Assembly (NCBI GenBank): GCA_017472925.1
Contig: JAFUNS010000025.1
Span: 24,416-88,415, forward strand
Direction of reading: 5' to 3'
From: Bacteroides sp.
GTDB taxonomy: Bacteria; Bacteroidota; Bacteroidia; Bacteroidales; Bacteroidaceae
Length of the DNA: 64,000 nucleotides
The notes beneath the pieces were generated by a model that was given only the letters and a program-made list of their open reading frames with translations, was not told the DNA's origin and made no database searches. Numbering within the stretch: position 1 is the first letter of the stretch; each line of letters begins with the position of its first letter. A program made the translations under genes and the position numbers. This document shows, in pieces, positions 16,321 to 64,000 of this stretch.

Positions 16321-16408
16321 TTTAGGCACGGATTACACGGATTAACACGGTTTTTAGTGTATGTTTACATTAAATTTATCCGTGCAATCCGTGTAACCCG
16401 TGCCTAAA
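16321..16408. repeat. GGCACGGATTACACGGATT hairpin repeat, copy 1
   Basis: Left arm 16321-16343 begins TTTAGGCACGGATTACACGG. Right arm 16386-16408 is its near-perfect reverse complement, ending CCCGTGCCTAAA. The spacer contains the shared TGTATGTTTACAT segment. It lies between convergent deoC and the prenyl synthase gene, so it could act as a bidirectional terminator. Confidence 0.85.
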
Positions 16409-16431
16409 ATACATTTATGACACACATCCTT

Positions 16432-17394: not shown

Positions 17395-17420
17395 TACGTT
17401 TCAATAACAATTTTAAGCTA

Positions 17421-17428
17421 CAAAATTA
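17421..17428 (-). promoter_or_regulatory. -7 promoter box of the polyprenyl synthase gene
   Basis: Minus-strand TAATTTTG matches TAnnTTTG, 26 bases ahead of ATG 17394. On the plus strand a weaker TACTTTTA near 17460 may serve polA. Confidence 0.5.
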
Positions 17429-17493
17429 AGAATAAAACACGGAATACGGTATTTTTTTGTACTTTTACCATGAAAAAACAAATATTTTTAAGA

Positions 17494-33360: not shown

Positions 33361-33367
33361 ATCGGGG

Positions 33368-33375
33368 CAAATATA
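33368..33375 (-). promoter_or_regulatory. -7 box of the regulator-kinase operon
   Basis: Minus-strand TATATTTG matches TAnnTTTG and ends seven bases before the regulator ATG, implying a leaderless or nearly leaderless transcript. The palindromes at 33399-33433 lie just upstream, where a bound regulator could also affect this promoter. Confidence 0.45.
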
Positions 33376-33398
33376 CAAAATATATTTGTGTGTTGTAT

Positions 33399-33433
33399 GT
33401 GCGAAATCGCACGTTTTTTGTGCGAATTCGCAC
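33399..33433. promoter_or_regulatory. Tandem palindromic operators, likely regulator enhancer sites
   Basis: GTGCGAAATCGCAC (33399-33412) and GTGCGAATTCGCAC (33420-33433) are two 14-bp palindromes sharing the half-site GTGCGA. Their centres are exactly 21 bp apart, two helical turns, so two dimers would bind on the same face of the DNA. Placement upstream of a sigma54 promoter and beside the gene of an NtrC-type activator is what an enhancer for that activator looks like. Confidence 0.8.
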
Positions 33434-33488
33434 ACTTTTTCTCGTGTTAATAAATGTTTCATCGTTGATTATCAACCGATTGATACTT

Positions 33489-33504
33489 TGGCACGGTTTT
33501 TGTA
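33489..33504 (+). promoter_or_regulatory. Sigma54 (-24/-12) promoter of the efflux array
   Basis: TGGCAC-GGTTT-TTGTA matches the sigma54 consensus TGGCAC-N5-TTGCA/T except for T instead of C in the -12 element. It is 33 bases before the tolC ATG at 33537 and about 60-85 bases downstream of the paired palindromes. Spacing between the -24 and -12 elements is correct. Confidence 0.8.
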
Positions 33505-33536: not shown

Positions 33537-34997
33537 ATGAAAAAGCTATTAACTATTGGATTACTTTTGGGTGCGGAAATGTTATCCGCCCAACAACCGA
33601 CAATGGACCTTACCTTGTCGCAAGCCATTGAAATTGCTCAGGAAAATTCGCCCGAAGCACAAGCTGCACGCCATACCTATCGGTCGGCCTACTGGAACTA
33701 TCGATACTATAAAGCCAACTATCTGCCTTCGCTGACTTTGACATCGAACCCTACGTTCAACGAGCAGATTAATAAGATTACCCAGCCCGACGGTACCAAC
33801 CTGTTCATCAAACAGAACCAGTTGAGCACCGACTTGAGTATGACCATCAATCAAAACATTCCCCTGACAGGCGGTAATTTCTTCGTAAAAAGCACGCTCA
33901 CTCGCTTGGATGAATTTGAGAACGATGTAACGGCCTACAATTCGCAACCGTTAGTCATCGGCTATCAACAAACCTTATTAGGATATAATTCCTTGAAGTG
34001 GGACAAGCGGATAGAGCCGGTGCGCTACCGCGAAGCACGGAAGAATTACAACGAAGCCCTGGAACTGGTCGCTTCACAAACCAGTAATTTGTTCTTTAAC
34101 TTGGCTACGGCACAAGCCAATCTGGACATTGCCTCGTCCAATTACGCTTCGGCCGATACCTTATATAGATACGCGCAAGGCCGCTACAACATCGGAACCA
34201 TTACCGAAAACGAAATGCTGCAACTCGAAATAAACAAGCTTTCGGGTGAAACGGACATGATGAATGCCCGCATCGAAGTGGAAGACCAGATGCAAACACT
34301 CCGCTCATTCTTAGGCATACAGGATGATGTGGAAATTCGGGTGATTACCGACAACGAAGTTCCCGACTTCCAAGTGCCCATGGCCGATGCCCTTCAGAAA
34401 GCTTTGGCCAATAGTCCCGACCCTGAAATGTACGAACGCATGAAAATCCAGAGCAAAAGCAATTTGGCCTATGCCAAAGGAAATGCCGGATTGAAAGCCG
34501 ACCTCTATGTACAATTCGGCCTTTCGCAAACGGGCAACAAGCTCCGCGACTCGTATCGCGACCCCATGAACCAATATTACGCCAGCATAGGCATTTCGCT
34601 TCCTATCCTGGATTGGGGGAGAGCCAAAGGACAAGTACGTGTGGCCCGCTCGAATGTGGATTTGGTGAATACACAAGCCGAACAGGGCATGAAGGACTTT
34701 GAACTGAATGTCTGCAAAATGGTACGCCAATTCAACTTGCAACGCCAATACGTAGTAGTGGCCTCGAAAGCCGACCGTACCGCCGACCGCCGCTATGATG
34801 TAGCCAAGCGCCTATATATCTTAGGTAAGAGCACCATTCTCGATTTGAATGCCGCCACTACCGAGAAAGATGCAGCCCGCCGTAGCTACATCGCTGCCCT
34901 GAAAACCTATTGGAGTCTATACTACGGACTCCGTAGCATGACAGGATACGATTACGAAAAGAACCAAAAAATAGCTGAAAATTATCCGGAAATATAA
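33537..34997 (+). CDS. TolC-family outer membrane efflux protein
   Basis: 486 residues from ATG 33537 (MKKLLTIGLLLGAEMLSAQQ, signal peptide). An open frame extends 85 codons upstream but crosses the sigma54 promoter and operators. The mature protein has two OEP repeats: long helical stretches beginning LTLSQAIEIAQENSPEAQAA and, in the second half, LQKALANSPDPEMYERMKIQ with the following SNLAYAKGNAGLKADLYVQF, plus NPTF/ISLPILDWG strands that form the outer-membrane barrel. TolC-type trimers form the outer membrane and periplasmic channel of tripartite pumps and type I secretion. First gene of the forward array; the adaptor gene follows 12 bases later. Confidence 0.93.
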   Translation: MKKLLTIGLLLGAEMLSAQQPTMDLTLSQAIEIAQENSPEAQAARHTYRSAYWNYRYYKANYLPSLTLTSNPTFNEQINKITQPDGTNLFIKQNQLSTDLSMTINQNIPLTGGNFFVKSTLTRLDEFENDVTAYNSQPLVIGYQQTLLGYNSLKWDKRIEPVRYREARKNYNEALELVASQTSNLFFNLATAQANLDIASSNYASADTLYRYAQGRYNIGTITENEMLQLEINKLSGETDMMNARIEVEDQMQTLRSFLGIQDDVEIRVITDNEVPDFQVPMADALQKALANSPDPEMYERMKIQSKSNLAYAKGNAGLKADLYVQFGLSQTGNKLRDSYRDPMNQYYASIGISLPILDWGRAKGQVRVARSNVDLVNTQAEQGMKDFELNVCKMVRQFNLQRQYVVVASKADRTADRRYDVAKRLYILGKSTILDLNAATTEKDAARRSYIAALKTYWSLYYGLRSMTGYDYEKNQKIAENYPEI

Positions 34998-35009
34998 AAA
35001 CAAAACAAT

Positions 35010-36254
35010 ATGGATTTTAAGATTGAAAAAAAACCGTGGTACATCCGTTACCGTTATTACCTGATTGCAGGAGCTGCCTTCATGGTATTCTTAATCTATG
35101 TCATCTCCCTTTCCCTAGGTCCCAGAAAGTTGCGCATAGAGAGTGAAAACATCCAGATAGCCGAAGTAAAGAACGGCAAGTTTATGGAATACGTCGATGT
35201 AGAAGGACTGGTGCAACCCATCCTTACCATCAAAGTGAACACCCGCGAAGACGGAAGCGTGGAACGAATTGTCAACGAAGAGGGCGCCACCCTGAAAAAG
35301 GGAGATACCATTCTGATACTCTCGAACCCCGAACTGATGCGCGAAATAGAAGACCAGCGCGATGAATGGGAAAACCAACGCTACTCCTACAAAGAACGCG
35401 AAATCGAAATGGAGCAGAAGAGCCTGACCTTGAAACAACAAGCCCTTCAGGCACAATACGAAATGAGTCGTCTGCAAAAGAATTTCGGATTGGAAAAGGA
35501 AGAATACCAGATGGGTATCAAGAGCAAGGCACAACTCGAAGTGAGCGAAGACGAATACAACTACAACATCCAGAAGACAGCCTTGCAGATGGAAAGCCTC
35601 CGACATGATTCGGCCATGACCGTTGTACGCAAGGAACTCCTGCGCAATGAAATGGAGCGCGGGCAAAAGAAATACTTGCGAAGCATGGACAGACTGGACG
35701 GGCTGGTAGTGCGTGCACCCATCGACGGACAACTGAGTTATGTTAACGCTACCCCCGGACAACAAGTAGGCTCCAATACCAACATTGCCGAAATCAAGGT
35801 GCTCGATGAGTTCAAGATTCATGCCCAGTTGAGTGAATACTACATCGACCGTATCAGCACCGGCCTACCCGCTACGGTGAACTATCAGGGCAAGCGCTAT
35901 CCACTAAAGATTACCAAGGTGGTTCCCGAAGTGAAAGACCGCATGTTCGATGTAGACTTGGTGTTTACCGGCGAAATGCCCGAAAATGTGCGTGTGGGCA
36001 AGAGCTTCCGTGTACAGATAGAATTGGGACAACCCGAAGATGCTATCGTAGTACAACGAGGCAACTTCTACCAAGCCACCGGTGGACAATGGATTTACAA
36101 GGTAGTGGGCGACAAGGCCGTTCGCGTGCCACTTACCATCGGTCGTCAGAATCCGCAACAATACGAGATTGCCGAGGGCTTGAATCCTGGCGATAAAGTC
36201 ATCGTTACCGGATACGATACTTTTGGCGAAGCCGAAGAATTGATTTTGAAATAA
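35010..36254 (+). CDS. Periplasmic adaptor (HlyD/MacA-like membrane fusion protein)
   Basis: 414 residues. One membrane anchor (about 17-37, YYLIAGAAFMVFLIYVISLS) with a short cytoplasmic N-terminus, then a split lipoyl domain (VDVEGLVQPILTIKVNTRED before, and VRAPIDGQLSYVNATPGQQV after) flanking a long coiled-coil hairpin (about 110-230) that should dock on the TolC tip. Beta-barrel and membrane-proximal domains follow (YPLKITKVVPEVKDRMFDVD, QWIYKVVGDKAVRVPLTIGR). Such adaptors connect an ABC permease to TolC. It sits 12 bases after tolC and 12 bases before the first permease, so the three are one transcript. It is the only adaptor gene in the visible array. Confidence 0.93.
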   Translation: MDFKIEKKPWYIRYRYYLIAGAAFMVFLIYVISLSLGPRKLRIESENIQIAEVKNGKFMEYVDVEGLVQPILTIKVNTREDGSVERIVNEEGATLKKGDTILILSNPELMREIEDQRDEWENQRYSYKEREIEMEQKSLTLKQQALQAQYEMSRLQKNFGLEKEEYQMGIKSKAQLEVSEDEYNYNIQKTALQMESLRHDSAMTVVRKELLRNEMERGQKKYLRSMDRLDGLVVRAPIDGQLSYVNATPGQQVGSNTNIAEIKVLDEFKIHAQLSEYYIDRISTGLPATVNYQGKRYPLKITKVVPEVKDRMFDVDLVFTGEMPENVRVGKSFRVQIELGQPEDAIVVQRGNFYQATGGQWIYKVVGDKAVRVPLTIGRQNPQQYEIAEGLNPGDKVIVTGYDTFGEAEELILK

Positions 36255-36266
36255 AAGATATATCAC

Positions 36267-38651
36267 ATGAAAACATTGAAATATGCCGTACGCTTCTTAG
36301 TCAGAAGTCGTTCGTACTCACTTATCAATCTGTTTGGCCTGGCATTCAGTTTGGCTTGTTGCATCATCCTGCTGCGGTACATCCATCGCGAACTTACGGT
36401 GGATACCCATTGTGTGGATAGGGAACGGGTAGTAATTCCGTTACGTTATCTGAATAAAAACCTAAGTATGGCATCTACAGAATTCAGCGATACCACATTC
36501 ATTCCTAATGAAAAGATAATACGACGGAGCAAATTTAATTTCAGTCAAGACGAATATATCAATTATAATGAAAATAACTATCGGGTGAATGTCATAAATA
36601 CTGATACAGTATTTATGAAACTCTTTCACTATCCGTTGGTAGAAGGTAGCACTGACTTGTCTGTGCCAGGCCATGCCATTATTACCCGAGATATGGCACA
36701 ACGCCTATTCGGTAAGGAAAGTGCGATAGGAAAAGTCATCGAACACGACAAAGCAAGCATTACCATATATGGCGTCATTGACAAACCGTCGTGCAAAACC
36801 CTATTTAATTTCGACATATTGATTTCCAAACAATTCACCGAAAGAGCTGAAATGGAACTGATAGAAGTATTGCCAAGCGTTGATTTGGAAGCTGTCAACA
36901 AAATTAGCAATGTCTTACGGAGATTCAAACTTCAAAATGGGAATTATTCACCTCTTCTGCATAGTTTTGAATTTGTTCCTATCAAAGACATGTACTTCCG
37001 CTATGGCAATCATGTAAAGGATTACCAAGAGAGATTCTTCACCTTCGGCTGTTCAGACTATTTGAACATACTCTTTATTGTGGCCTTGCTGCTTCTGTTT
37101 GTAGGTATAATGAATTTCATCAACCTCTATATGGTGTATATGATGAAACGTCAAAAGGAATACGGCATCAAGAAAGTTTACGGCTTGCAAAAGTGGCCAT
37201 TGTTTATACAAATCTGGTCAGAAAATGTATTGTTAGCCTTCTGGGCACTGATGGTGGCATGGTTCATCATCGAGATTACCCAAATACCTGTAGCCCGTTT
37301 GTTGGGAACAGAGATGGCCTATAGCCCGTTCGACTTTTATCTGTCTATCGGCTTCCTATTGGTTTTACCGTTGGTAACTTCCATCTATCCATACATCCGT
37401 TATCAGTACATGTCACCCATCACCTCCATGCGTTCTATTGTAACTGACCGCCAGTCGGTAGCTACCCGCATGATGCTCCTTTCTGTGCAATACGTGGTAA
37501 CCTTTGTACTGATGGTATTCTCGCTCTATTTGAACAAGCATTTCCAGTTCCTCATCAATACCTCTCCAGGATTCCGTACCGAAAGAATACTCGAAGCCAG
37601 TTTGGTAGAAAGTACTGCAAACCTTAATGATTTTGAGGCATCATTAGGAAGAATAGATAAAGTAAATCAAAAGTTGCAGGAATGTCCGGATATTGAAACA
37701 TGGTCACAAAGTGGAAGCATCATTAAAGGAACAAGTTTCACAAAGACCTATTACGATGACAAGGACCAAGCATTCGAACTGAATTCTCCTATTCAATTTA
37801 CTTCTTCTTTCATGAAAATTTATGATTTGAAAATAGTAGAAGGAGAACTTCCCGACTCAACAGACTTTCGTACTCCTGTCATTGTAATAAATCGTGCAGC
37901 CATGAAACTAATGGGTTATAAACACATAGAAGAAGCATTCATCCGTCCAAATGAGCCTATATTTAGATTTTATACGTCCGAGGGAGTCACAGAATATGGG
38001 AAATCCCTGCAACCAGTAGCAGCCGTGATAGAAGACTATTACTCGGGACATATCACAGAAGGAGTGAAACCAATGATAGCTGTGTATCAAGTCGATAAAG
38101 TGAATAACATATCTACCGGCAAGCATTATCTCGTTGTTCGTGAAGGTAAGGAACAAGCCGTTATCGACTATTTGAAAAAAATTGTCCGCGAAGTGTATAA
38201 TACCGAAGAGTTGGAATATTCCTGGATTTCCGACCAAGTGAAGGCCATCTACGACGAAGACCGTCGTGTAGCCACCATCTATACCATTTTTGCCTTGATA
38301 GCCATCGGTGTATCGTGCTTGGGCTTGTTCGGCATCTCGCTTTTCGATATCCGCCAGCGCTATCGCGAAATAGGTATCCGCAAGGTGAACGGTGCCGGCA
38401 TGAAGGATTTGTACAAGCTGCTCTTCCGCAAATATGTCCTGATATTGGTGGCCTCGTTTGCCGTTGCCATCCCCTTGGCGTGGTATGCCATCCATATCTA
38501 TACGGCCGACTTTGTGGTGAAGGCTCCGGTGGGCATCGATGTATTCCTCATCGCCCTGCTGGTCATTGCCCTCATTTCACTCGGCACCTTGTATTGGCAG
38601 ATACGGAAAGCAGCAAACATCAATCCGTCCATTGTTATGAAACGAGAATAA
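36267..38651 (+). CDS. MacB/FtsX-type ABC permease 1 (subfamily A)
   Basis: 794 residues. Two tandem FtsX/MacB halves in one chain with about eight membrane helices: TM1 (about 17-38), a periplasmic domain (about 45-265), TM2-4 (about 268-378), TM5 (about 405-425), a second periplasmic domain (about 430-655) and TM6-8 (about 670-780). Each half has a cytoplasmic coupling motif: KEYGIKKVYGLQKWPLF in the first, REIGIRKVNGAGMKDLY in the second. There is no ATPase domain, so it must pair with a separate subunit. A mechanotransmission role, driving substrate from the periplasm into TolC as in MacB, is inferred. The C-terminus reads NPSIVMKRE. Ends of the gene are nearly identical to permease 2. 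Confidence 0.9.
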   Translation: MKTLKYAVRFLVRSRSYSLINLFGLAFSLACCIILLRYIHRELTVDTHCVDRERVVIPLRYLNKNLSMASTEFSDTTFIPNEKIIRRSKFNFSQDEYINYNENNYRVNVINTDTVFMKLFHYPLVEGSTDLSVPGHAIITRDMAQRLFGKESAIGKVIEHDKASITIYGVIDKPSCKTLFNFDILISKQFTERAEMELIEVLPSVDLEAVNKISNVLRRFKLQNGNYSPLLHSFEFVPIKDMYFRYGNHVKDYQERFFTFGCSDYLNILFIVALLLLFVGIMNFINLYMVYMMKRQKEYGIKKVYGLQKWPLFIQIWSENVLLAFWALMVAWFIIEITQIPVARLLGTEMAYSPFDFYLSIGFLLVLPLVTSIYPYIRYQYMSPITSMRSIVTDRQSVATRMMLLSVQYVVTFVLMVFSLYLNKHFQFLINTSPGFRTERILEASLVESTANLNDFEASLGRIDKVNQKLQECPDIETWSQSGSIIKGTSFTKTYYDDKDQAFELNSPIQFTSSFMKIYDLKIVEGELPDSTDFRTPVIVINRAAMKLMGYKHIEEAFIRPNEPIFRFYTSEGVTEYGKSLQPVAAVIEDYYSGHITEGVKPMIAVYQVDKVNNISTGKHYLVVREGKEQAVIDYLKKIVREVYNTEELEYSWISDQVKAIYDEDRRVATIYTIFALIAIGVSCLGLFGISLFDIRQRYREIGIRKVNGAGMKDLYKLLFRKYVLILVASFAVAIPLAWYAIHIYTADFVVKAPVGIDVFLIALLVIALISLGTLYWQIRKAANINPSIVMKRE

Positions 38652-38654
38652 TAT

Positions 38655-38752
38655 TTCACCACAGATTATACAGATGAACACAGATTTTTTTATTCTTTTC
38701 ATCAAAATAATATATATCCTAATTTGTGGAAATCTGTGTAATCTGTGATGAA
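38655..38752. repeat. Diverged hairpin repeat between permeases 1 and 2
   Basis: TTCACCACAGATTATACAGA at 38655 and ATCTGTGTAATCTGTGATGAA ending at 38752 form inverted arms around an AT-rich loop of about 55 bases. It has the same build as the GGCACGGATT family, with CAGAT instead of CGGAT units. Its place inside the array means it may attenuate or process the transcript. Confidence 0.65.
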
Positions 38753-38769
38753 TTAAAACCCCAAAGAAT

Positions 38770-41145
38770 ATGAAAACATTGAAATACGCCGTACGCTTCT
38801 TAGTCAGAAGTCGTTCGTACTCACTTATCAATCTGTTTGGCCTTGCATTCAGCCTGGCTTGTTGCATCATCCTGCTGCGCTACATCCATCGCGAACTTAC
38901 GGTGGACACCCATTGTGTGGACCGTGAACGGGTAGTGGTGCCTATCCGGGACATTCAGGTAACAACGAGCCTATCGAATACATCGTATTGCGACTCGACC
39001 TATATTCCGGACGACCAAATCGTAAACCGTACCGGACTCAACTTCTACTCCTACGAGCGCGTGACATACAACGAGCAAGACTACTACCTCGATTTCATAG
39101 CCGCCGATTCCAACTTCCTGCAAATGTTCCATTTTCCATTGGTAGCAGGAATCGCCAAGCTTTCCGCTCCCGATCATGCCCTCATAACACAGGAATGTGC
39201 TACCCGCCTCTTTGGTCAGCAGAATCCGATAGGAAAAGTTTTGACTTACAATAAACAAGCATACACCATTCGTGGAGTCATCACCCCACCGGTCTGCAAG
39301 ACCACCTTCCATTTCGATATGCTCGTCTATAACATGAATAAAGGTCATAGCATCGGGGCAGAACTGCTCCAAGTGCTACCGAGCGTGGATTTGGAAGCCG
39401 TGAACAAAGTTAGCGGTATATTCAGACAAATCGTGACACCGGACGGACATGTGTCTTCCTTGAAGCATAGCATAAAGTTCATCACCTTGGAAGACCTCTA
39501 CTTCAGCAAGCTGAAAAACGTACATTCAAGAGAACAGAACTGCCTAGTTTTCGGAAGTTCAGATTACCTGAACATCCTGTTTATCGTAGCCATACTCATG
39601 CTCTTCGTAGGTATTCTGAACTTCGTGAACCTATATATGGTCTATATGATGAAGCGAAACAAGGAATACGGCATCAAGAAAGTGTTTGGCCTGCAGAAGT
39701 TACCATTGTTCGTGCAAATATGGACGGAAAACGTGATACTGGCTTTCTGGGCACTGATGTTTGCCTGGCTGATTATAGAAATCACGCAAGTACCCGTAGC
39801 ACAACTCATGGATACGGAGATGCACTATACTTGGTTCGACCTCCAGTTATCCCTCTGCTTCTTGTTCGGCCTGCCTGTAATCACTTCCATCTATCCGTAC
39901 ATCCGCTACCAGTACATGTCACCCATCACTTCGATGCGTGCCATCACTACCGGTCGCCAGTCGGTCATGACACGCATGGTGTTCCTGTCCATCCAATACA
40001 TGGTAACCTTCGTGCTGATGGTCTTCTCGCTCTACCTAAACAACCATTTCCGTTTCTTGATTGACACCCCTCCGGGATTCCGTACCGAGAACGTGCTCGA
40101 AGCCACCGTCATTCAAGACCTGTATGACAACTATGAAGACTATGCAGCAAGCAAGAAGGCCATCTATCAGAAGTTGGACGAATGCCCGGACATCCTTGCC
40201 TGGACCAATTCCGACAATATCCTGCTGAGCAAACAGATCACCGATAAATTTTACAACGACAAGGACGAAGAGGCAGAACTACTGCAATTCAGCGCCGACG
40301 AGTCTTTCTTCAAAGTATTCGACCTGAAATTGATAGAAGGAGAAATTCCGGAAAATATAAGTCTCGAAGAGCTCAAAGTCATTCTGAACCAAGCAGCCAT
40401 GAAGGCATTGGGTTACCGACATTTGGAAGAAGCGTATATTCGAAGCTCAGTCAGTCTAGGCATGTCCATAGATGAAAACGGAAAAATCACCAAGTACGGA
40501 ACTACTCTATTCCCGGCCAGTGGCATTGTAGAAGATTACTACTTTGGTCACATTACAGAGGGTGTAAAGCCCATGGCAATCCAAATCGGCCAAGGAGGCA
40601 GTGGCACCAGTATAAAAGTTCTGATTCACATAGCCCAAGGCAAGGAAAAGGCCGTCATCAGCTACTTGAAGAATGCTATTCTGGAAGTGTATGGCAACGA
40701 TACATTGGAATATAGTTGGATTTCCGACCAGGTAAAGGCCATCTACGACGAAGACCGTCGGGTAGCTACTATCTATACCATTTTTGCCCTGATAGGCATT
40801 GGTATTGCTTGTCTGGGCCTGTTCGGCATCTCGCTCTTCGACATTCGTCGCCGCTATCGCGAAATAGCCATCCGCAAGGTGAACGGTGCCGGCATGAAGG
40901 ACTTGTACAAGCTGCTCTTCCACAAGTATGTCCTGATATTGGTGGCTTCGTTTGCCGTTGCCATCCCCTTGGCCTGGTATGCCATCCATATCTATACGGC
41001 CGACTTTGTGGTGAAGGCTCCGGTGGGCATCGATGTATTCCTCATCGCCCTGTTGGTCATTGCCCTCATTTCACTCGGCACCTTGTATTGGCAGATACGG
41101 AAAGCAGCAAACATCAATCCGTCCATTGTTATGAAACGAGAATAA
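38770..41145 (+). CDS. MacB/FtsX-type ABC permease 2 (subfamily A)
   Basis: 791 residues with the same eight-helix, two-half layout. The first 50 codons and the last 140 codons are almost the same at DNA level as permease 1 (both start MKTLKYAVRFLVRSRSYSL and end NPSIVMKRE), whereas the first extracytoplasmic domain (about 50-260) and the second (about 430-650) are clearly different. This points to a tandem duplication whose ends have been kept alike by recent origin or gene conversion. The second coupling loop reads RREIAIRKVNGAG-like (RRYREIAIRKVNGAGMKDLY). The ATPase gene follows 38 bases later. Confidence 0.9.
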   Translation: MKTLKYAVRFLVRSRSYSLINLFGLAFSLACCIILLRYIHRELTVDTHCVDRERVVVPIRDIQVTTSLSNTSYCDSTYIPDDQIVNRTGLNFYSYERVTYNEQDYYLDFIAADSNFLQMFHFPLVAGIAKLSAPDHALITQECATRLFGQQNPIGKVLTYNKQAYTIRGVITPPVCKTTFHFDMLVYNMNKGHSIGAELLQVLPSVDLEAVNKVSGIFRQIVTPDGHVSSLKHSIKFITLEDLYFSKLKNVHSREQNCLVFGSSDYLNILFIVAILMLFVGILNFVNLYMVYMMKRNKEYGIKKVFGLQKLPLFVQIWTENVILAFWALMFAWLIIEITQVPVAQLMDTEMHYTWFDLQLSLCFLFGLPVITSIYPYIRYQYMSPITSMRAITTGRQSVMTRMVFLSIQYMVTFVLMVFSLYLNNHFRFLIDTPPGFRTENVLEATVIQDLYDNYEDYAASKKAIYQKLDECPDILAWTNSDNILLSKQITDKFYNDKDEEAELLQFSADESFFKVFDLKLIEGEIPENISLEELKVILNQAAMKALGYRHLEEAYIRSSVSLGMSIDENGKITKYGTTLFPASGIVEDYYFGHITEGVKPMAIQIGQGGSGTSIKVLIHIAQGKEKAVISYLKNAILEVYGNDTLEYSWISDQVKAIYDEDRRVATIYTIFALIGIGIACLGLFGISLFDIRRRYREIAIRKVNGAGMKDLYKLLFHKYVLILVASFAVAIPLAWYAIHIYTADFVVKAPVGIDVFLIALLVIALISLGTLYWQIRKAANINPSIVMKRE

Positions 41146-41183
41146 TAATTATTAATATTACTAACATTTAAAAATTAACTATT

Positions 41184-41858
41184 ATGATTAAGACAGAAAA
41201 TTTACAGAAAATCTTCAAGACAGAAGAAGTGGAAACATGGGCATTGCACAATGTAAGCCTCGACATTAAGGAAGGCGAATTTGTAGCCATTATGGGACCT
41301 TCGGGTTGTGGTAAGTCTACTTTGTTGAACATCCTCGGTTTGCTCGACAATCCTACCAACGGTACTTACCAACTGAACGGTGTAGAAGTATCGAAGATGA
41401 CCGAATCACAACGCACCGACTTACGTAAGGGTGTCATTGGTTTCGTATTCCAGAGCTTCAACCTCATCGACGAACTGAATGTATACGAAAACATCGAACT
41501 TCCTTTGCTTTACATGGGTGTACCCTCGGCAGAACGCAAGCGCCGTGTAGAAGAAGTGATGGACCGCATGGCCATTGCCCACCGTTCGGGTCACTTCCCA
41601 CAACAACTCTCGGGTGGTCAGCAACAACGTGTAGCCATTGCCCGTGCCGTAGTAGCCAGTCCCAAGATTATCCTTGCCGACGAACCTACCGGTAACCTCG
41701 ACTCTAAGAACGGTCGTGAAGTGATGGATCTCCTCACTCAATTGAACAAGGAAGGAACTACTGTAGTAATGGTAACCCACTCTCAACACGATGCCGGCTA
41801 TGCCAGCCGTACCATCAACTTGTTCGATGGTAGCGTGGTTAGTGAAGTGCAAATGTAA
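41184..41858 (+). CDS. ABC transporter ATPase (MacB/LolD type), only ATPase of the array
   Basis: 224 residues, a stand-alone nucleotide-binding subunit. Walker [10 protein letters not shown] is at 38-46, Q loop in [20 protein letters not shown], signature [14 protein letters not shown] near 140, Walker [14 protein letters not shown], switch His in [12 protein letters not shown]. It belongs to the LolD/MacB/FtsE group that pairs with FtsX-type permeases. It lies after permease 2 and ahead of nine further permease genes, and no second ATPase gene is visible. It presumably energises several or all of them, a point that needs testing because an ATPase elsewhere in the genome or beyond the window could also serve. 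An A/T-rich leader of 38 bases precedes it. Confidence 0.95.
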
Positions 41859-41880
41859 TTGTAGCATTCTGAATCCTCAT

Positions 41881-42002
41881 CTGTCATCCTGAGCGTTAGC
41901 GAAGAATCTGGAGACATAAAGTGGATGTAAACAGATTTTTCGGACGAAGTCCTCAACAACTCGTCTTCACTCCGTTCAGGATGACACAAATGGAGGATGA
42001 CA
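41881..42002. repeat. TCATCCTGAGC dispersed repeat, copy 2
   Basis: CTGTCATCCTGAGCGTTAGC at 41881 and TTCAGGATGACA near 41975-41986 form imperfect inverted arms, followed by GGATGACA at 41994-42002. Related to the copy at 6135-6259. It fills the gap between the ATPase gene and permease 3, a possible breakpoint for duplication or insertion. Confidence 0.7.
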
Positions 42003-42041
42003 CGATGAAGAATAAAGAAAGAAAAGGAAAAAGACGATATT

Positions 42042-44456: not shown

Positions 44457-44469
44457 AAACAACTATAAT

Positions 44470-46896: not shown

Positions 46897-46913
46897 AAAA
46901 AGGTTGAAAAAGT

Positions 46914-47104
46914 AGTTTCACATCTGTCACGGGCTCGTAATCCTTTGTAGGTCAATTGGTTTCTGTGAAGGATAGCCCAAAATTCTTCTTTCACATCCTT
47001 CACAAGATAAAGTGTGAAGGATGTGAAAGAGGAAAAACAGATAGAAGCTTCACAGAAACGAGCTGAGTGTTAGCAACTTACAAACCTGTGACAGATGTGA
47101 AACT
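46914..47104. repeat. Nested three-tier inverted repeat
   Basis: Outer arms AGTTTCACATCTGTCAC (46914-46930) and GTGACAGATGTGAAACT (47088-47104) are 17 bp and perfect. Middle arms GTTTCTGTGAAG (46959-46970) and CTTCACAGAAAC (47048-47059) are 12 bp and perfect. Inner arms CTTTCACATCCTTCACA (46988-47004) and TGTGAAGGATGTGAAAG (47013-47029) are 17 bp and perfect, with an 8-base loop. All three fit in one extended hairpin of about 190 bases. Confidence 0.85.
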
Positions 47105-47147
47105 GAAATTCGAACTTAAATAAAAAAAAGGCGATGAGTTATGCCTC

Positions 47148-47186
47148 GTAACACGCCGTTTTACAAGTAAGAAAACGCCGTGTTAC
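47148..47186. repeat. Hairpin upstream of permease 5
   Basis: GTAACACGCCGTTTT and AAAACGCCGTGTTAC form a 15-bp stem with one mismatch and a 9-base loop. No T run follows, so it is not a simple terminator. Confidence 0.7.
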
Positions 47187-47241
47187 TACCGGGAACTCGA
47201 TGATTTATCGACCAAAAGGAAGAAACAATAAAGTTATATAC

Positions 47242-49623: not shown

Positions 49624-49655
49624 TAAAAAAGAAGAAACAAAAAAGAAAGAATAGT

Positions 49656-51929: not shown

Positions 51930-51961
51930 GAAAAAGAAAGAAACAAAAAAGAAAGAATAGT

Positions 51962-54292: not shown

Positions 54293-54316
54293 GGAAGAAA
54301 CAATAAAGTTATATAC

Positions 54317-56719
54317 ATGAAAACATTGAAGTATGCTGCACGCTTTTTGATACGTGCCAAATCGTACACAATTATCAATATGTTGGGCTTGGCCTTCAGC
54401 CTGGCTTGTTGCATCATCCTGATGCGCTACATCCATCGCGAGCTGACGGTGGATACACATTGTGTGGATAGGGAGCGGGTAATAACCGTATTGACAGATC
54501 ACGGGGGTATGCAATGGGCCACTCACATAGGATACATGGATACCACTTACCTCAAGCAGGAGGAAGTCCTTAAAATATCCGAGATGGTTATTTTGCCGAA
54601 CACTACCTTGGTGTACGACAACGAGAGTTATGCCATGAATGTGCTGGCTACCGATTCCAACTTCCTGGATTTGTTCCATTACAACATATCCGAAGGAGAA
54701 GCGCGGCTGGCTGCACCCGAGGATGCCTTGATAACCCGAGCGTATGCCGAACGGATATTTGGCAAAGAGAGTGCTGTGGGAAAAGTATTGCACTTCAATG
54801 TAAAGACTGTTACCATACGGGGAGTCATCGAGCAACCCGAATGCAAAAGTGTATTCAACTTCGACATCCTTCTGAATGAAAAATTACAAAGGCAATGGGG
54901 AAAAATAAATGCTTCGTTGATACATGTTTTGCCCGGTGTCGATTTGAAGGAAATAAACAAGAAAAGCTTTGTATATAAGGAATATAACGATTCGGACATC
55001 AATTTCAAGTATCGCAGCCGTTATGAGTTTGTAAGCTGGGAAGATTTCTATTTCAAGAACCTGAACTCGGCGGAGGATTACAAAGACATATTGGTATTCG
55101 GCAACCTTGATTATCTGTACATCCTTTGTGCGGTAGCGGTCTTGTTGCTCTTTGTAGGAATCCTGAATTTCATCAACCTCTACATGGTGCTGATGATGAA
55201 ACGCTCCAAGGAATATGGCATCAAGAAAATATTCGGCTTGCAGAAGTTGCCATTGTTCGTGCAGATATGGTTGGAAAACTTCTTGTTGGCGGGTATTGCC
55301 TTGTTCCTATCGTGGTGGCTCATCGAGGTGACACAAGTTCCTATAGGCCGCTTGTTAGGCGAACGGATGGAATACACCCACTTCGACTGGCAAGTTTCTT
55401 TGGGATTCCTTGTAATACTGCCGTTACTAACTTCCATTTATCCTTATGTCCGCTATCAATACATGTCGCCCATCTCTTCCATGCGGAATCTGTTTGCCAC
55501 CCATCATTCGGTAGTGGTCCGCATGTCGTTTTTAGGAGTACAATATATAGCCACGGCTATACTGGTAATATTCTCCCTCTACTTGAACAATCATTTCCAA
55601 TTCCTGATGAATGCACCGAAAGGTTATCATACAGAGCGGATTTTGGAAGCTCATCTGCTACACGAAAATCTGGATTATTCGCGTAATGAGACCAAAGAGG
55701 AATGGAACAAGCGTAAAGCCCATATATCGCGTATCGGCCAACTACTGGACGAATGTACATGGATAGAAAAATGGCAGAACCAGGAAGGAAACATCTTGGA
55801 AGGAAACCAACAGGATATGACTTTCTTTAACGACAAAGACCAGTCGTTGAAAATTTACTATCAAACCGTCAGCAAATCTTTCTTTGATATGTACGGTTTG
55901 AAGATACTTCAGGGAAGCATCCCCGACAAGATAGAAAACGAAAGCATGGGACAGTATGTACTGGTTCTGAACGAAGCAGCCATGAAAGCCTTCGGTTTCC
56001 GTAACAAGGATGAGGCCTTTATCCGTGCCGAAAGTCCGCTGGGCATTACTGTAATGAATGGAAAGATAATCACTCACGGCACCGATTTGATGCCCGTTAC
56101 GGCTGTTGTCAACGATTATTATGCCGGACATCTGACGAATGGTGTGCATCCCATGGTATTCAGTATCGAAAACGACAGTAACCGGGGAGTATATTACCTG
56201 AAAGTAAAGGAAGGAAAGGAAAAGGAAATCATTGAATATCTGAAGGGCATTATGCTGGATGTCTACAACACCGACGACTTCAGCTACACCTGGATGGACG
56301 ATGAGGTAAAAGCCCTTTACAAGGAAGACCGCAAGGTGGCCACCATTTACACTATCTTTGCATTGATAGCCATAGCCATATCGTGCCTCGGCTTGTTCGG
56401 CATCTCTTTGTTCGATATCCGCCAACGTTATCGCGAAATTGGCATCCGCAAGATAAACGGAGCTAAAATCAAGGACTTGTACCGCTTGCTTTTCCGCAAA
56501 TATGTGGTGGTATTGGTAGCGGCGTTTGTGGTGTCCATACCTATTGCCTATTACCTCATCACGCTATACACTCAGGACTTTGTGGTAAAGGCTCCGATAG
56601 GCATCGGCATCTTTATCATCGCCTTGCTGGTAGTAAGTGTCATTTCGCTCGGCACTCTGTTCTGGCAAGTGCATAAAGCAGCCAACATCAATCCGGCGGA
56701 TGTGGTGAAGAGTGAATAA
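54317..56719 (+). CDS. MacB/FtsX-type ABC permease 8 (subfamily A)
   Basis: 800 residues. The leader and first 40 codons are almost identical to permease 5 (MKTLKYAARFLIRAKSYTII), while the remainder follows permeases 1 and 2: first coupling loop KEYGIKKIFGLQKLPLF, second REIGIRKINGAKIKDLYRLL, and closing domain FVVKAPIGIGIFIIALLVVS. The C-terminus is NPADVVKSE. It is thus a bridge between the permease 1/2 type and the permease 5 type. Extracytoplasmic domain 2 (about 430-655) is long and charged. It lies 24 bases after permease 7 and 23 bases before permease 9. Confidence 0.9.
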   Translation: MKTLKYAARFLIRAKSYTIINMLGLAFSLACCIILMRYIHRELTVDTHCVDRERVITVLTDHGGMQWATHIGYMDTTYLKQEEVLKISEMVILPNTTLVYDNESYAMNVLATDSNFLDLFHYNISEGEARLAAPEDALITRAYAERIFGKESAVGKVLHFNVKTVTIRGVIEQPECKSVFNFDILLNEKLQRQWGKINASLIHVLPGVDLKEINKKSFVYKEYNDSDINFKYRSRYEFVSWEDFYFKNLNSAEDYKDILVFGNLDYLYILCAVAVLLLFVGILNFINLYMVLMMKRSKEYGIKKIFGLQKLPLFVQIWLENFLLAGIALFLSWWLIEVTQVPIGRLLGERMEYTHFDWQVSLGFLVILPLLTSIYPYVRYQYMSPISSMRNLFATHHSVVVRMSFLGVQYIATAILVIFSLYLNNHFQFLMNAPKGYHTERILEAHLLHENLDYSRNETKEEWNKRKAHISRIGQLLDECTWIEKWQNQEGNILEGNQQDMTFFNDKDQSLKIYYQTVSKSFFDMYGLKILQGSIPDKIENESMGQYVLVLNEAAMKAFGFRNKDEAFIRAESPLGITVMNGKIITHGTDLMPVTAVVNDYYAGHLTNGVHPMVFSIENDSNRGVYYLKVKEGKEKEIIEYLKGIMLDVYNTDDFSYTWMDDEVKALYKEDRKVATIYTIFALIAIAISCLGLFGISLFDIRQRYREIGIRKINGAKIKDLYRLLFRKYVVVLVAAFVVSIPIAYYLITLYTQDFVVKAPIGIGIFIIALLVVSVISLGTLFWQVHKAANINPADVVKSE

Positions 56720-56742
56720 AAAAGAAACAAAAAGAATCTATT

Positions 56743-59193: not shown

Positions 59194-59229
59194 TAAAAAA
59201 GAAAGAAACAATAAAAATATAGTTGAATT

Positions 59230-61671
59230 ATGCTACTACATTACCTGAAAGTTGCCGCGCGCAACCTGTTGAAGTACAAGACGCAGAGCGTCATTAGTAT
59301 TGTGGGATTGGCCATAGGTCTTGCCGCATTTGTTTATGGTTGGCATTGGATGAAGTACGAGACATCCTATGATAGTTTCTATCCCGATGCCGAACGAAGT
59401 TATTTAGTATATTCTCCTTCGGAAAACAACTACTTGGGAGTCAGTTCCCCTGTATTGTCAGAGTATATCCGTGAACATTGTCCGCAAGTAGAATATGTAA
59501 CCCGCAGCTTCCAAAGTTCGAGCATGAATTACCAAGCAGACAACGTACTGATGAATGCGCCCGAATTCATACCCGTGGATTCTGCCTTCCAGGGCATCTT
59601 CCCACAAACCATTCTATACGGAAGAAAACTGATGGACACTTACGACATCATACTTTCCGAAAGCTTTGCCCGAAAATATTTCGGAGAGCCCCAAAAGGCA
59701 TTGGAAACGGTATTGGTACAGACAGCCAGAGCTGGGTTTTATCTGCCCGAACCGCAACACCTCAAAGTGGTAGGTATTATGGCCGATGCACCACAGAATG
59801 CCAACATGGTTTACCCGGGGTACTTTTTGGACATGAGTAGTGCACCATCCAACTTGTATGAACCCAACAGATGGAATGCTGAAATGGCATTTACACACGT
59901 CAAGTTGAAAGAAGGATATTCACAAGAAGAGTTTACCAATCATCTGAATACCTCCTTACACCAATTGGATTTTTTGAAAGAAAAGACGTTCAAGGCGGTA
60001 CCACTTTATCAGAAACATTTCGAGTTTGCCTCGGAAGAGTCGTTTTCTTATTCGGCCATCTCCATGTTTACTATGGCCACCCTACTATTGCTTTGTTGTG
60101 TACTTTTCAATTTCATGAATCTGTTCCTCAACCGCTATTACCAACGTGCCCGCGAAGTAAAACTTCGTAAATCGGTGGGAGCCAACAACCTGAAGTTGGT
60201 CTGCCAGGTGATGATCGAAATCCTTTCGCACGGCATTTGGGGATTTTTGCTATGCGGTTGTCTGATTGAAACAACAGTTCCGTTTTTTGAAGAAACATTC
60301 TCCATCACCATCCAAATGGATGTACTCTGGAAAGAATATGTACAGGTAATCATAACAACCGCCATAGTCATGCTGCTGTTGTTGCTTTTTCCGGCTCTGC
60401 AATTTATCCGCTCGGCCGGACGACAACTGATGGGAAACCGCCCGCAGACACACAACCGTACTTTAGTGCGCAGAATCGGATTATCCGTTCAGTTAATCAT
60501 CTGCTTGTTCTTCTTTGCTTCGGCCAGTTCTCTTTATCGACAACTTCGTTTTATGAACCATACGGACATGGGAATGGAAACAGACAACATAATAGAACTG
60601 ATGATTTCCGGTTTCGAACAAAACGGCAAAGACTTATTGGAAGACGTCAAACGATTGCCTATGGTAGAAAAACATACCACCGCTTCGGATTACCTTATTT
60701 CCAAAAAAGGATTGTATTTGCAGGATAATGTAGAATGGGACAGAAAGACCGAAGCGCAGAAAGAAGTGAAAATAGCGCAATTGGAATTACAGGAAAACGG
60801 TTGGGACATGTTCCGCTTCCGATTGATTGAAGGTCGCGGATTTGAAGAAAGCGACTGGCAACCTTCCGGCAACCAACCTAAAGACCCCATTACAGGAAAA
60901 CCTGTATTGAACCGTATAGTCGTCAACGAAAGTGCTGTAACGGCCATGCAGATGGAACAGCCTGTAGGGAAAAGAATTCGCATTTCTACAGGCATCTTTG
61001 GACCAAACGGGTTGGAAAATCATTATACAGACTATGAAATCATTGGTGTCATCAAAGATTTTCACACCCAAGGAATGAAAGCTGAGACGCAACCGGCTAT
61101 AGTAATGCAGAACTTCCGCTTTGTCCGTCCCATCAATTATTTCCAAGTTACCCAGGGAACGGAACAGGCCGCATTGAAAGCCATCAACGAACTGGCCGAA
61201 AAACACGGTTGGGAGTACAACAAGAACAATACGCCTCCCCAAATCCTAACAGATAAAATCAAAGAACTCAACAAGTCTGAGACTGCTACATTCCGCCTGT
61301 TCTCTATCCTTACTTTCTTGTGTGTGCTCATTTCATTGTTCGGCATCTTTGCCATTTCGGCTTCTACAGTAGGGCAACGCCGCAAGGAAATTGCTGTTCG
61401 CAAAGTTATGGGAGCTACCGCAAAGAATGTGGTGGACATGTTCTTCCGCGAATACATCTGGTTAGTGGGGATAGCTGCAATTGTTGCTTTCCCATTCTTC
61501 TACTATACTATTTCCCGATGGTTGGAACAATTTGCCTATCACATTCATATCAGCATAGGCATCTATTTGGCTTTGGCATGCATCACAGTAGTTTTAGTAT
61601 TGCTTACAGTATGCAATCAAGTGATACAAGCCGCCAACGAAAATCCAGCGGATGTGGTGAAGAGTGAATAA
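59230..61671 (+). CDS. MacB/FtsX-type ABC permease 10 (subfamily C)
   Basis: 813 residues. The start MLLHYLKVAARNLLKYKTQS and end NPADVVKSE are those of subfamily C. The first coupling loop is REVKLRKSVGANNLKLVCQV (Lys-Ser-Val in place of Lys-Val), the second RRKEIAVRKVMGATAKNVVD. Extracytoplasmic domain 1 is about 42-265; domain 2 (about 430-680) is larger than in permeases 6 and 7 and includes WQPSGNQPKDPITGKPVLNR, which accounts for the extra length. Gaps of 36 bases before and 33 after match the rest of the block. Confidence 0.9.
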   Translation: MLLHYLKVAARNLLKYKTQSVISIVGLAIGLAAFVYGWHWMKYETSYDSFYPDAERSYLVYSPSENNYLGVSSPVLSEYIREHCPQVEYVTRSFQSSSMNYQADNVLMNAPEFIPVDSAFQGIFPQTILYGRKLMDTYDIILSESFARKYFGEPQKALETVLVQTARAGFYLPEPQHLKVVGIMADAPQNANMVYPGYFLDMSSAPSNLYEPNRWNAEMAFTHVKLKEGYSQEEFTNHLNTSLHQLDFLKEKTFKAVPLYQKHFEFASEESFSYSAISMFTMATLLLLCCVLFNFMNLFLNRYYQRAREVKLRKSVGANNLKLVCQVMIEILSHGIWGFLLCGCLIETTVPFFEETFSITIQMDVLWKEYVQVIITTAIVMLLLLLFPALQFIRSAGRQLMGNRPQTHNRTLVRRIGLSVQLIICLFFFASASSLYRQLRFMNHTDMGMETDNIIELMISGFEQNGKDLLEDVKRLPMVEKHTTASDYLISKKGLYLQDNVEWDRKTEAQKEVKIAQLELQENGWDMFRFRLIEGRGFEESDWQPSGNQPKDPITGKPVLNRIVVNESAVTAMQMEQPVGKRIRISTGIFGPNGLENHYTDYEIIGVIKDFHTQGMKAETQPAIVMQNFRFVRPINYFQVTQGTEQAALKAINELAEKHGWEYNKNNTPPQILTDKIKELNKSETATFRLFSILTFLCVLISLFGIFAISASTVGQRRKEIAVRKVMGATAKNVVDMFFREYIWLVGIAAIVAFPFFYYTISRWLEQFAYHIHISIGIYLALACITVVLVLLTVCNQVIQAANENPADVVKSE

Positions 61672-61704
61672 GAAAAAGAAAGAAACAATAAAAGAAAGAA
61701 TTGT

Positions 61705-64000
61705 ATGCTACTACATTACCTGAAAGTTGCCGTGCGCAACCTGTTGAAGTACAAAACGCAGAGCGTCATTAGTATAGTGGGGCTGGCCATCGGATTGGCT
61801 ACCTTTACATTGTCCGCCTTCTGGGTGAGGTACGAAATGACTTTCGATACTTTCCATCGAGATGCGGAACGGATGTATTTGGTAGGAGTGGACATTTCCA
61901 TTTGGGGGAGACAATATGAAGATAATATACCCTATTCCTTTGGGGAGCACTATCAACAAATATGTCCGGAAATAGAGGACTGGTGTATGTTTACTTATAG
62001 TAGTAATATACCTATACAGAAAGAGAAATCCATTGTAGATATTCCTTGTATCTATCCCGATTCTACTTTTCTCAATATGATGGACATACGGATATTGGAG
62101 GGGAATCCTCACTTTTACTTAGAACGCCAAATAGCCTTGACGGAGCGAATGGCAATGGATTTCTTCGGAACCACCCAGGCAATAGGGAAAGAAATAGACA
62201 CCGGGAATGGGAACAAGATGAAAGTAGGAGCCATAGTGAGCGATTGGGGAATTCATTCCAACTATCCCTACCAATTTTTAAGCCATTTCTTGGGATCAGA
62301 CAACAGCTATTCTTTACTCATCAAAGTGCGCAAAGGAACAGACATCGACGCACTGACCCAAAAGATGAACGAAAACCTACCCGCTACGGCCGACAAGGAA
62401 ATAAAGGGATTCTTTATAGTTCCACTTACCAAACTGCATTACGACAAAGGATATGTTGGCCAAAACGGTGCACCCGTTAAATATGAACATATTGTTTATT
62501 TTTCAATTACCGGAGTGCTCATTATTCTCTGTGCATTGATCAATTACTTGAGCATTTGCGTAGACCGCTTCCGTACACGCCGTAAGGAAATGGGACTCCG
62601 CAAAGTGTGTGGCGCATCGGGACTTTCACTATACTTGTTGCTGGCAACGGAATTGTTGATTACCATACTCATTTCTGCCATGGTAGGTATGGTTTTAGTG
62701 GAATGCCTTCTTGAAAGTTTTATGAACTATGCCTCCATTGGTGAAACACGCAATTCGGTTTATGTCAGTTGCATACTCTACAGTGCAGGAAGCGCCGTAT
62801 TGATTTTCGTTGTTACCTTAATAGGCTTGTTGTTCTTGCAGCGTTATTCTTTGCAAAGTCCTCTTCAGGCCAAGAGTTCGGGCAACTATTTCCGCAAGGG
62901 AAGTCTGATTATACAACTGGTATGCTCATTGTTCTTTATCACCAGTACGGCATTGATGCAAATGCAAATACATCATTTGAGATATTCGGATACAGGCATG
63001 GATTATCAATGCCGGGGAGCCGCCAGTCTTTGGATGAATGTAGACATGAATGTATGGCACAAAAAGATAGCCGAACTCCCCATGATAGAGGAAACGGTAG
63101 AGCCTAAATACTGGCCGTTGCTCTCTATGGGAGCCGGACGGATGCGTGAAGTAACTCATTGGGACGGATTGGACAAACCTTTGGAAGAACCGTTTTATAT
63201 CAACGATATTTCTGCCGGTGAAGATTTGTTCGACTTTTATAACATGGAGTTGCTCAGCGGAAGATGGATAACGGAATCTTCCAAAGGGAATGAAGTTGTT
63301 ATAACAGAAAGTACAGCTAAACGGTTCGGATGGACGGCAGAGGAAGCTGTGGGCAAACAGTTCTATTCCAGTGTAGAGAATTTGGAAGTAATCGGTGTAA
63401 TGAAGGATTGCGCCTACAAATCGCCTACCGAACGGATGCCATATACCGCTTTTTACAACACATATCAGGAAAAATGGTTTTGGGGCCGCGCTTTCGTGTT
63501 ATTCAAATACAAACCCGGCACATGGGAAGAATGCCGCAAACGCATCGAGCAAATGCAACAAGCCGAGGAACCTAACAAGAAGTTGTTCATATTCAGTGAG
63601 GAAGAGAAATACAATGAATACTTGAAATCGGAAGATGCATTGTCTACTCTATTAGGTTTCGCCTCTCTGGTTTGTATCCTTATCTCAGTGTTTGGTATCT
63701 ACTCATTGGTAACGCTTACTTGCCAATATCGTCGCAAGGAAATAGCCATCCGCAAAGTAAACGGAGCCCAAATGAGCGATATTCTTCGTATCTTTTCCAA
63801 AGAATATACGCTAATGCTTATTGTGGCATCCATTATAGCTTTCCCTACCGCCTATTGGGTAATGAAGCAATGGATACAAACCTATAACCGCCAAGTAGAG
63901 ATAGGCATCCTTCCATTTGCCATTATATTTATAAGCATCGCCCTGGTTATCACCATCAGTATAGGCCACCGTGTTTGGAAAGCCGCCAACGAAAATCCGG
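61705..64000 (+). CDS. MacB/FtsX-type ABC permease 11 (subfamily C, 3' end outside window)
   Basis: Open from ATG 61705 to the last base without a stop: 765 complete codons. It starts MLLHYLKVAVRNLLKYKTQS and the last visible residues are AANENP, exactly where its paralogues continue ADVVKSE and stop, so only about seven codons are missing. Coupling loops RRKEMGLRKVCGASGLSLYL and RRKEIAIRKVNGAQMSDILR are intact. No frameshift is seen. Further array members may follow beyond the window. Confidence 0.9.
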   Translation, partial: MLLHYLKVAVRNLLKYKTQSVISIVGLAIGLATFTLSAFWVRYEMTFDTFHRDAERMYLVGVDISIWGRQYEDNIPYSFGEHYQQICPEIEDWCMFTYSSNIPIQKEKSIVDIPCIYPDSTFLNMMDIRILEGNPHFYLERQIALTERMAMDFFGTTQAIGKEIDTGNGNKMKVGAIVSDWGIHSNYPYQFLSHFLGSDNSYSLLIKVRKGTDIDALTQKMNENLPATADKEIKGFFIVPLTKLHYDKGYVGQNGAPVKYEHIVYFSITGVLIILCALINYLSICVDRFRTRRKEMGLRKVCGASGLSLYLLLATELLITILISAMVGMVLVECLLESFMNYASIGETRNSVYVSCILYSAGSAVLIFVVTLIGLLFLQRYSLQSPLQAKSSGNYFRKGSLIIQLVCSLFFITSTALMQMQIHHLRYSDTGMDYQCRGAASLWMNVDMNVWHKKIAELPMIEETVEPKYWPLLSMGAGRMREVTHWDGLDKPLEEPFYINDISAGEDLFDFYNMELLSGRWITESSKGNEVVITESTAKRFGWTAEEAVGKQFYSSVENLEVIGVMKDCAYKSPTERMPYTAFYNTYQEKWFWGRAFVLFKYKPGTWEECRKRIEQMQQAEEPNKKLFIFSEEEKYNEYLKSEDALSTLLGFASLVCILISVFGIYSLVTLTCQYRRKEIAIRKVNGAQMSDILRIFSKEYTLMLIVASIIAFPTAYWVMKQWIQTYNRQVEIGILPFAIIFISIALVITISIGHRVWKAANENP

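Follow-up and report, generated by a model that had tools for sequence, protein, structure and literature searches.

This study concerns a transporter gene array at the end of contig C5 (88415 bases) of GenBank assembly GCA_017472925.1, a metagenome-assembled genome (MAG) of 2.81 Mb and 79.7% completeness that is listed as Bacteroides sp. The window, by which is meant the whole stretch of 64,000 bases analysed, covers bases 24416-88415 of C5, and positions are counted from its first base. The list of open reading frames (ORFs) together with Pfam matches places on one strand (+) a TolC-like channel (OEP), an adaptor, one intact ABC ATPase and eleven permeases of the MacB/FtsX type, in the order OEP, adaptor, two permeases, ATPase and nine permeases, with frames open throughout. 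A regulator and a kinase, divergent from tolC, flank the array, and a tandem palindrome and a -24/-12 promoter site both sit between the regulator and tolC. The features are:

30671..31996, minus strand: histidine kinase with two close transmembrane (TM) helices, residues 9-27 and 35-53 (HATPase_c 5.8e-20; hydropathy)
31993..33462, minus strand: NtrC-family response regulator with a GAFTDA loop (Response_reg, Sigma54_activat 1.1e-66, HTH_8)
33399..33433, no strand: tandem palindrome GTGCGAAATCGCAC-N7-GTGCGAATTCGCAC, the presumed activator site (upstream activating sequence), read from the sequence
33489..33504, plus strand: putative sigma-54 -24/-12 site TGGCACGGTTTTTGTA (sequence; spacing to the palindrome conserved)
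33537-34997, plus strand: OEP, TolC-like outer-membrane channel (PF02321 8.8e-41)
35010-36254, plus strand: periplasmic adaptor, HlyD/MacA type (HlyD_3 1.1e-13; RND_mfp above and DarC below cut-off)
36267-38651, plus strand: permease p01, MKTLKY type (FtsX twice, MacB_PCD, as for all permeases below)
38770-41145, plus strand: permease p02, MKTLKY type
41184-41858, plus strand: the single ABC ATPase, 224 aa, MacB/LolD/DarD-like (ABC_tran 2.5e-37; DarD 292 bits against a cut-off of 375)
42042-44456, plus strand: permease p03
44470-46896, plus strand: permease p04
47200-49623, plus strand: permease p05, MKTLKY type
49620-51929, plus strand: permease p06, MLLHYLK type
51962-54292, plus strand: permease p07, MLLHYLK type
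54317-56719, plus strand: permease p08, MKTLKY type, gene ends homogenised with three permeases of contig C7
56743-59193, plus strand: permease p09
59230-61671, plus strand: permease p10, MLLHYLK type
61705-64000, plus strand: permease p11, MLLHYLK type, cut by the contig end

The likely ATG of the OEP gene is at 33537, its mechanical ORF beginning at 33282, and the likely true start of the regulator is at 33360 (residue 35). An earlier note on this DNA, made from the letters alone, had described the same gene order on one strand, with most genes 12-38 bases apart, and both points hold: nine of the 13 spacings fall in that range, one is a 4-base overlap and three are longer (118, 183 and 303 bases). 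Its description of permeases that each have two FtsX halves and no ATPase domain, beside a single ATPase gene, is likewise borne out by Pfam, since every permease (765-816 aa) has a MacB_PCD match in one or two stretches and two FtsX stretches, and none of the eleven has an ABC_tran match. Pairwise identities among the permeases are only 20-63% (BLASTP, with partial alignments for some pairs), which rules out recent tandem duplication as the origin of the array. Ten permeases have complete ORFs, and that of p11 is interrupted only because the contig stops, its FtsX match extending to profile position 119 of 120; because the window ends where C5 ends, the array may be longer. The ATPase carries Walker A, signature and Walker B motifs, and its best solved relatives include MacB and LolD; that of p08 is MacB (PDB 5nik, 2.9e-11), and the nine solved relatives of the adaptor include MexC-like and MacA proteins. 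All three large gaps (38652-38769, 41859-42041 and 46897-47199) hold imperfect inverted repeats with arms of 14-35 bases, which are REP- or MITE-like and may be recombination points.

The pairing of several permeases with a single ATPase recurs across Bacteroidales, and permease number, which the earlier note had proposed to compare, is variable. Using the ATPase as query, 80 named loci were fetched, of which 74 have an intact ATPase ORF; flanks were at most 10 kb and ORFs on the opposite strand ended the count, so that the permease counts are minimum values and an ATPase lying farther off would escape notice. Two or more full-length permeases (600 residues or more) stand with exactly one ATPase in 42 of the 74 loci, or 48 when fragments are included, and none of the 74 combines two or more permeases with a second ATPase within these flanks; in L106, two ATPases occur without any permease. 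OEP and adaptor both occur in the run in 30/74 loci. In 17 genomes of our own choosing, a single type-A ATPase (at least 78% identical) is present in 14 and two are present in G046; none was found in the other two, both incomplete MAGs, one of which (G044) has a 71% fragment where a contig ends. The parts need not be adjacent: in G068 an OEP-adaptor pair and a permease-ATPase-permease group lie about 243 kb apart, with the tandem site before both. The locus of Phocaeicola vulgatus ATCC 8482 comprises a Sel1 protein, OEP, adaptor, three permeases, the ATPase and one permease.

The palindromes lead to further permeases in the same genome. The sequence GTGCGANNTCGCAC occurs without mismatch four times in the assembly, as two tandem pairs, one before tolC on C5 and the other before four permease genes on contig C7; a single copy with one mismatch lies on C23, and the backward control pattern gives one. 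The C7 promoter has the same sigma-54 site as that of C5. In C7 positions 1-20000 there are four full-length permeases and no OEP-, adaptor- or ATPase-like ORF, and none of the 30 matches to PF00005 (ABC_tran) in the genome is on C7. The shared sites and the lack of an ATPase on C7 therefore give 15 permeases (11 + 4) under one predicted switch with one linked ATPase. Downstream of the C7 permeases, on the same strand, are genes for a Sel1 protein, two thioredoxin-like proteins, a DUF4221 protein and one further ORF.

Similar units are common in related genomes. With up to two mismatches, the tandem site was found in 42 of 61 Phocaeicola genomes (60 plus the present one), at 1-7 copies each, and its backward control in one. 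Blocks were fetched around many, though not all, of these sites, and 51 of the 56 sites in them have a sigma-54 site 55-57 bases downstream. The first gene is a permease after 28 sites, an OEP after 18, a Sel1 protein preceding an OEP after two and a beta-propeller lipoprotein after three, the rest being followed by a contig end (four) or another gene (one); for the five sites without a sigma-54 match, a system gene on one side was counted, the regulator being on the other. Internal tandem sites without a recognised sigma-54 match occur in G002 and G015. The three lipoproteins, each with its own tandem palindrome and sigma-54 site, lie at L168 4871-6067, L178 1-936 and L180 7985-9229; they have DUF5128 and TolB_like domains and are likely non-permease members of the regulon. 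In another family of the order (L214, L216) the ATPase gene itself has a tandem palindrome, placed between adaptor and ATPase, and in G017 two proteins of 526-528 aa (C220 87151-88731 and 91394-92980; L186, L036), presumably AAA-ATPase/PD-(D/E)XK proteins from the way they read, are found amid palindrome-led permeases. Thioredoxin-fold proteins recur around the C7 array and in loci of G001, G007, G046 and G053, that of G006 being recognised by its likeness to the one in G053, which suggests, as speculation, a cargo that bears disulfides or is handled by redox chemistry.

The putative switch has the features of a sigma-54/NtrC regulon as read from sequence: receiver, AAA+ domain with GAFTDA loop, Fis-type helix-turn-helix, a -24/-12 promoter and upstream palindromes. 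A general sigma-54 scan of the window gave 31 matches where 31.7 are expected by chance, so it is position and conservation, and not that scan, that support the site at 33489. Among 27 named loci, the region between regulator and first gene contains the exact palindrome in 19 (none in base shuffles) and, with one mismatch allowed, in 24 (0.7% in shuffles), the three lacking it being L108, L127 and L131; a sigma-54 site with up to two mismatches is present in 21 of the 27, compared with 6% in shuffles. By hydropathy, the window kinase has a loop of about seven residues between its TM helices and no periplasmic sensor domain, and of 38 kinases read, some of them from loci present in both of two collections, 35 are two-TM proteins with loops of seven residues or fewer. 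Lacking a periplasmic sensor, the kinase probably receives its signal by way of the membrane or the transporter, by analogy with Bce modules.

While the core of the system is constant, its permeases turn over. The nearest relatives of the core genes share 94-96% identity with them, and in the sister genome G006 the OEP (95%), adaptor (96%) and ATPase (94%) match closely, as do p03 (97%) and, less so, p04 (77%), but the locus there has five permeases. Thirteen of the 15 permeases of the regulon have no relative of 70% or more in the loci fetched from other genomes, a result repeated with loci fetched later; the regulator (best 74%) and kinase (best 58%) are also more variable than the core. Each permease has eight main hydrophobic segments and two periplasmic domains (helix and loop limits were set from hydropathy and the layout of MacB). 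The earlier note had proposed that the permeases differ in their extracytoplasmic domains, and it is there that variation is concentrated: averaged over all pairs of the 15, identity in the two periplasmic parts is as low as 0.22 and 0.20, against 0.41 and 0.54 for the cytoplasmic coupling loops and 0.70 for the C-tail, and between the MKTLKY and MLLHYLK types it is 0.17 in the periplasmic parts and 0.81 in the C-tail. The motif of the second coupling loop is retained in all 15.

Some of the permease genes are mosaics. Between p08 and three C7 permeases the first 50 residues are 94-98% identical (fourfold-site identity 0.79-1.00) and the last 115 residues 96-97% (0.76-0.94), whereas the middles are only 34-43% identical (0.28-0.41). 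Relatives of the C7 permease c7b in three other genomes reverse this, being 62-64% identical in the middle, 74-77% over the last 115 residues (fourfold 0.45-0.58) and 84-88% over the first 50 (0.60-0.75), so that the crossed orthologue/paralogue pattern stands out at the last end and can also be seen at the first. Like ends with different middles, reversed in the c7b relatives, are the mark of gene conversion between paralogues, and these patterns indicate that it has taken place, also between contigs. Selection on the protein ends is unlikely as the sole cause, given the fourfold sites and the crossed pattern, although the first few codons alone could be under constraint. Three permeases of a related system on C21 (system B) show no such excess (fourfold identities of 0.27, 0.37 and 0.45 over 22, 256 and 73 sites). 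In other genomes, pairs with an end at 70% or more and a middle below 60% were sought in the 19 with two or more full-length permeases fetched, and nine have them, mostly one pair each: the pattern extends to both ends in G052, is seen at the first end in G053, G015 and G010 and at the last in G049 and G006, and is weak in G050, G073 and G051.

Taken together, the locus is probably, though by no means certainly, a modular tripartite ABC exporter in which one ATPase powers some 15 permeases through a common adaptor and channel. Its anatomy, the co-occurrence of regulatory sites, the turnover and the mosaicism can be read from the DNA itself; the working of the parts is predicted from them. A dimer of the one ATPase would power any of about 15 fused-dimer permeases, each of which would bind its own substrate by two divergent periplasmic domains, and mechanotransmission of the MacB kind would pass the substrate to the adaptor and TolC-like channel, which every permease is presumed to use. 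The sensor-less kinase, perhaps sensing through the membrane or the permeases, and the NtrC-type regulator, presumably bound at the tandem palindromes, would co-activate the core operon and the unlinked satellite operon from sigma-54 promoters. Gain, loss and recombination act meanwhile on the permease genes, and in some the ends (the first helix, and the second coupling loop, last helices and C-tail) are homogenised while the periplasmic middles stay different. Shared ATPase, adaptor and channel with interchangeable permeases was the inference of the earlier note, and it fits the one-ATPase loci, the C7 operon without an ATPase and the turnover of permeases against a constant core; that the parts are shared is still something we infer. 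Not part of that account were the control by sigma-54 and NtrC, the unlinked satellite permeases on C7, the mosaic ends of the genes and the sensor-less kinase. As to substrate, toxic peptides of the gut, either antimicrobial peptides or bacteriocins, are our best guess.

Several observations weigh against this reading. Only one full-length permease was counted in 20 of the 74 loci and none in 12 (15 and 11 with fragments included), so plurality is not universal. The tandem site is missing from 19 of the 61 Phocaeicola genomes, and the strict, exact site-promoter unit was found in five of 295 genomes sampled from the whole order; these five belong to three genera, and the present family contributes only four genomes to the sample. 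The six strict sites found there all adjoin an OEP, ATPase or permease. The genome has two other related ATPases, on C21 (73% identical) and C18 (57%), and only about 80% of it is covered by the MAG, so the permeases may be served by another ATPase. The coupling loops show no ATPase specificity, because loop 2 fails to separate the array's system A from system B (similarity 0.43 between MKTLKY and system B permeases, 0.41 between MKTLKY and MLLHYLK); the C-tail alone separates them, and modestly (0.81 against 0.54 and 0.67), and p03 and p04 have C-tails of their own. Homogenisation of ends is uneven, with none in p09 and the first end only in p10 (with p11, 11/14 fourfold sites), and no qualifying pair was seen in 10 of the 19 other genomes.

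Among other explanations, the one that survives best, though we think it rather unlikely, is that the cargo exported or sorted is made by the cell itself, for example surface lipoproteins or secreted peptides, in place of foreign toxins. Core and satellite operons do hold Sel1 and thioredoxin-fold proteins with signal- or lipoprotein-like N-termini, beta-propeller lipoproteins follow three of the palindrome sites, and the ATPase is LolD-like as well as DarD-like; however, the accessory genes vary between loci, and a pattern scan of the loci fetched up to then, in which other types were not looked for, found no NVEALA-type precursor peptides. It is unlikely that this ATPase has only one or a few permeases as partners, with other MacB/LolD-like ATPases driving the rest and the array being a storage place. 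The C21 and C18 ATPases and the undiscriminating coupling loops would allow it, but those two ATPases sit with permeases of their own, the satellite permeases share the regulatory sites and C-tail of the array, and a second ATPase is absent from every counted locus that holds more than one permease. System B (L003, G000 C21:36000-48000) consists of a regulator, a kinase, the 73% ATPase and three permeases, with no OEP or adaptor in the stretch fetched; in L004 (G000 C18:38000-52000) half-size permeases lie on both sides of the 57% ATPase, with an adaptor, OEP and regulator as well. Another duplicated permease lies at a contig end on C20 (L206 7322-9691), with no tandem palindrome in the stretch fetched around it.

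Still less probable is that the permeases are mainly BceB-like sensors or receptors that report ligands to the sensor-less kinase, transport being secondary and many working without ATP: the short-loop, two-TM form of 35 of the 38 kinases is that of intramembrane-sensing kinases, and the variable part of the permeases is periplasmic, yet there is one kinase for many permeases, the OEP, adaptor and ATPase recur together, and every one of the 15 keeps the second coupling loop motif. That most of the array consists of dead or redundant paralogues which tandem duplication and gene conversion have maintained is very improbable, for although conversion has happened and one locus elsewhere (L119) holds many permease fragments, all the ORFs are intact but for the truncation of p11 where the contig stops, the coupling motif is retained, and promoter units precede satellite permeases in several genomes. 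A role in anti-phage defence was also considered and rejected, as PADLOC gave only generic ATPase/AAA+ matches for the ATPase and regulator and none for the OEP, adaptor, kinase or the four permeases given.

If the shared-motor exporter is real, a principle of vitamin importers would have been carried over to tripartite exporters, and there would be an answer to how 'orphan' duplicated permeases of the ADOP kind are powered, with their function testable by a single gene deletion. The tandem palindrome and sigma-54 site at fixed spacing would serve as a regulatory barcode for scattered members, and human gut commensals would possess, in mosaic permeases whose ends stay constant while their periplasmic middles vary, a repertoire for recognition that keeps diversifying. 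P. vulgatus ATCC 8482 is a standard strain that carries a four-permease version and is open to study at once.

The closest likenesses are to tripartite exporters. As in MacAB-TolC of E. coli, an OEP, a HlyD-type adaptor and a MacB_PCD/FtsX permease are encoded together; MacB has its own ATPase domain and a single four-helix permease that acts as a homodimer, unlike the present system with its separate ATPase gene, permeases that are fused duplicates, and 11-15 of them. The darobactin exporter DarBCD likewise has a separate ATPase, a duplicated FtsX permease and an adaptor, with one permease, and its components are the best NCBIfam models for the ATPase and adaptor, although equivalog cut-offs are not reached (DarD 292/375, DarC 150/450 and, over six permeases scanned, DarB at most 76/700 bits). 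For the same six the best NCBIfam model is TIGR03434, the ADOP family of duplicated orphan permeases (103-205 bits against a cut-off of 622), which is of equal length and has the same double FtsX layout. ADOP proteins are described as having no ABC ATPase gene nearby; the window array differs in its ATPase at 41184, while the four C7 permeases are orphans like them. In Bce-type modules (BceRS-BceAB) an FtsX-family transporter stands beside a sensor-less two-TM kinase, with intramembrane sensing, and such a kinase is found here too. BceB is a single permease with ten helices and one large extracellular domain, there is one permease per ATPase, and the regulator is of another class, unlike the NtrC/sigma-54 control, adaptor, TolC and many fused, duplicated permeases with two periplasmic domains of the present system. 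Group II ECF transporters and those served by MsmK are importers with unrelated membrane subunits and no adaptor or outer-membrane channel; the likeness is one of logic only, in that one energiser serves several substrate-specific subunits.

In the literature, the available part of PMC12316311 reports an enrichment of sigma-54 promoters before FtsX-like COG0577 'antimicrobial peptide' permeases in Bacteroidia, called there first evidence, and that part contains no arrays, single-ATPase loci, palindromic activator sites, satellites or mosaicism. ABCTPP, from a gut Prevotella clone, is a single short ORF with MacB_PCD and FtsX domains that reportedly gave salt tolerance in E. coli, an array or partner genes not being described in the portion of PMC5780487 available, and the phrase 'duplicated orphan permease' occurs in an excerpt of a Dyadobacter description. 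The arrangement of one motor with many permeases was not found described in the open-licence literature, some of the search terms being narrow. Each part is known already. The best reading is of a MacAB/DarBCD-like exporter that would be built, by analogy, on the shared-motor logic of group II ECF transporters. The fuller form of that analogy is tentative, somewhat short of an even chance in our judgement: the group II principle would work there as an exporter, with one engine, one switch and recombination-diversified mosaic permeases over several operons acting as a periplasmic receptor repertoire against changing peptides.

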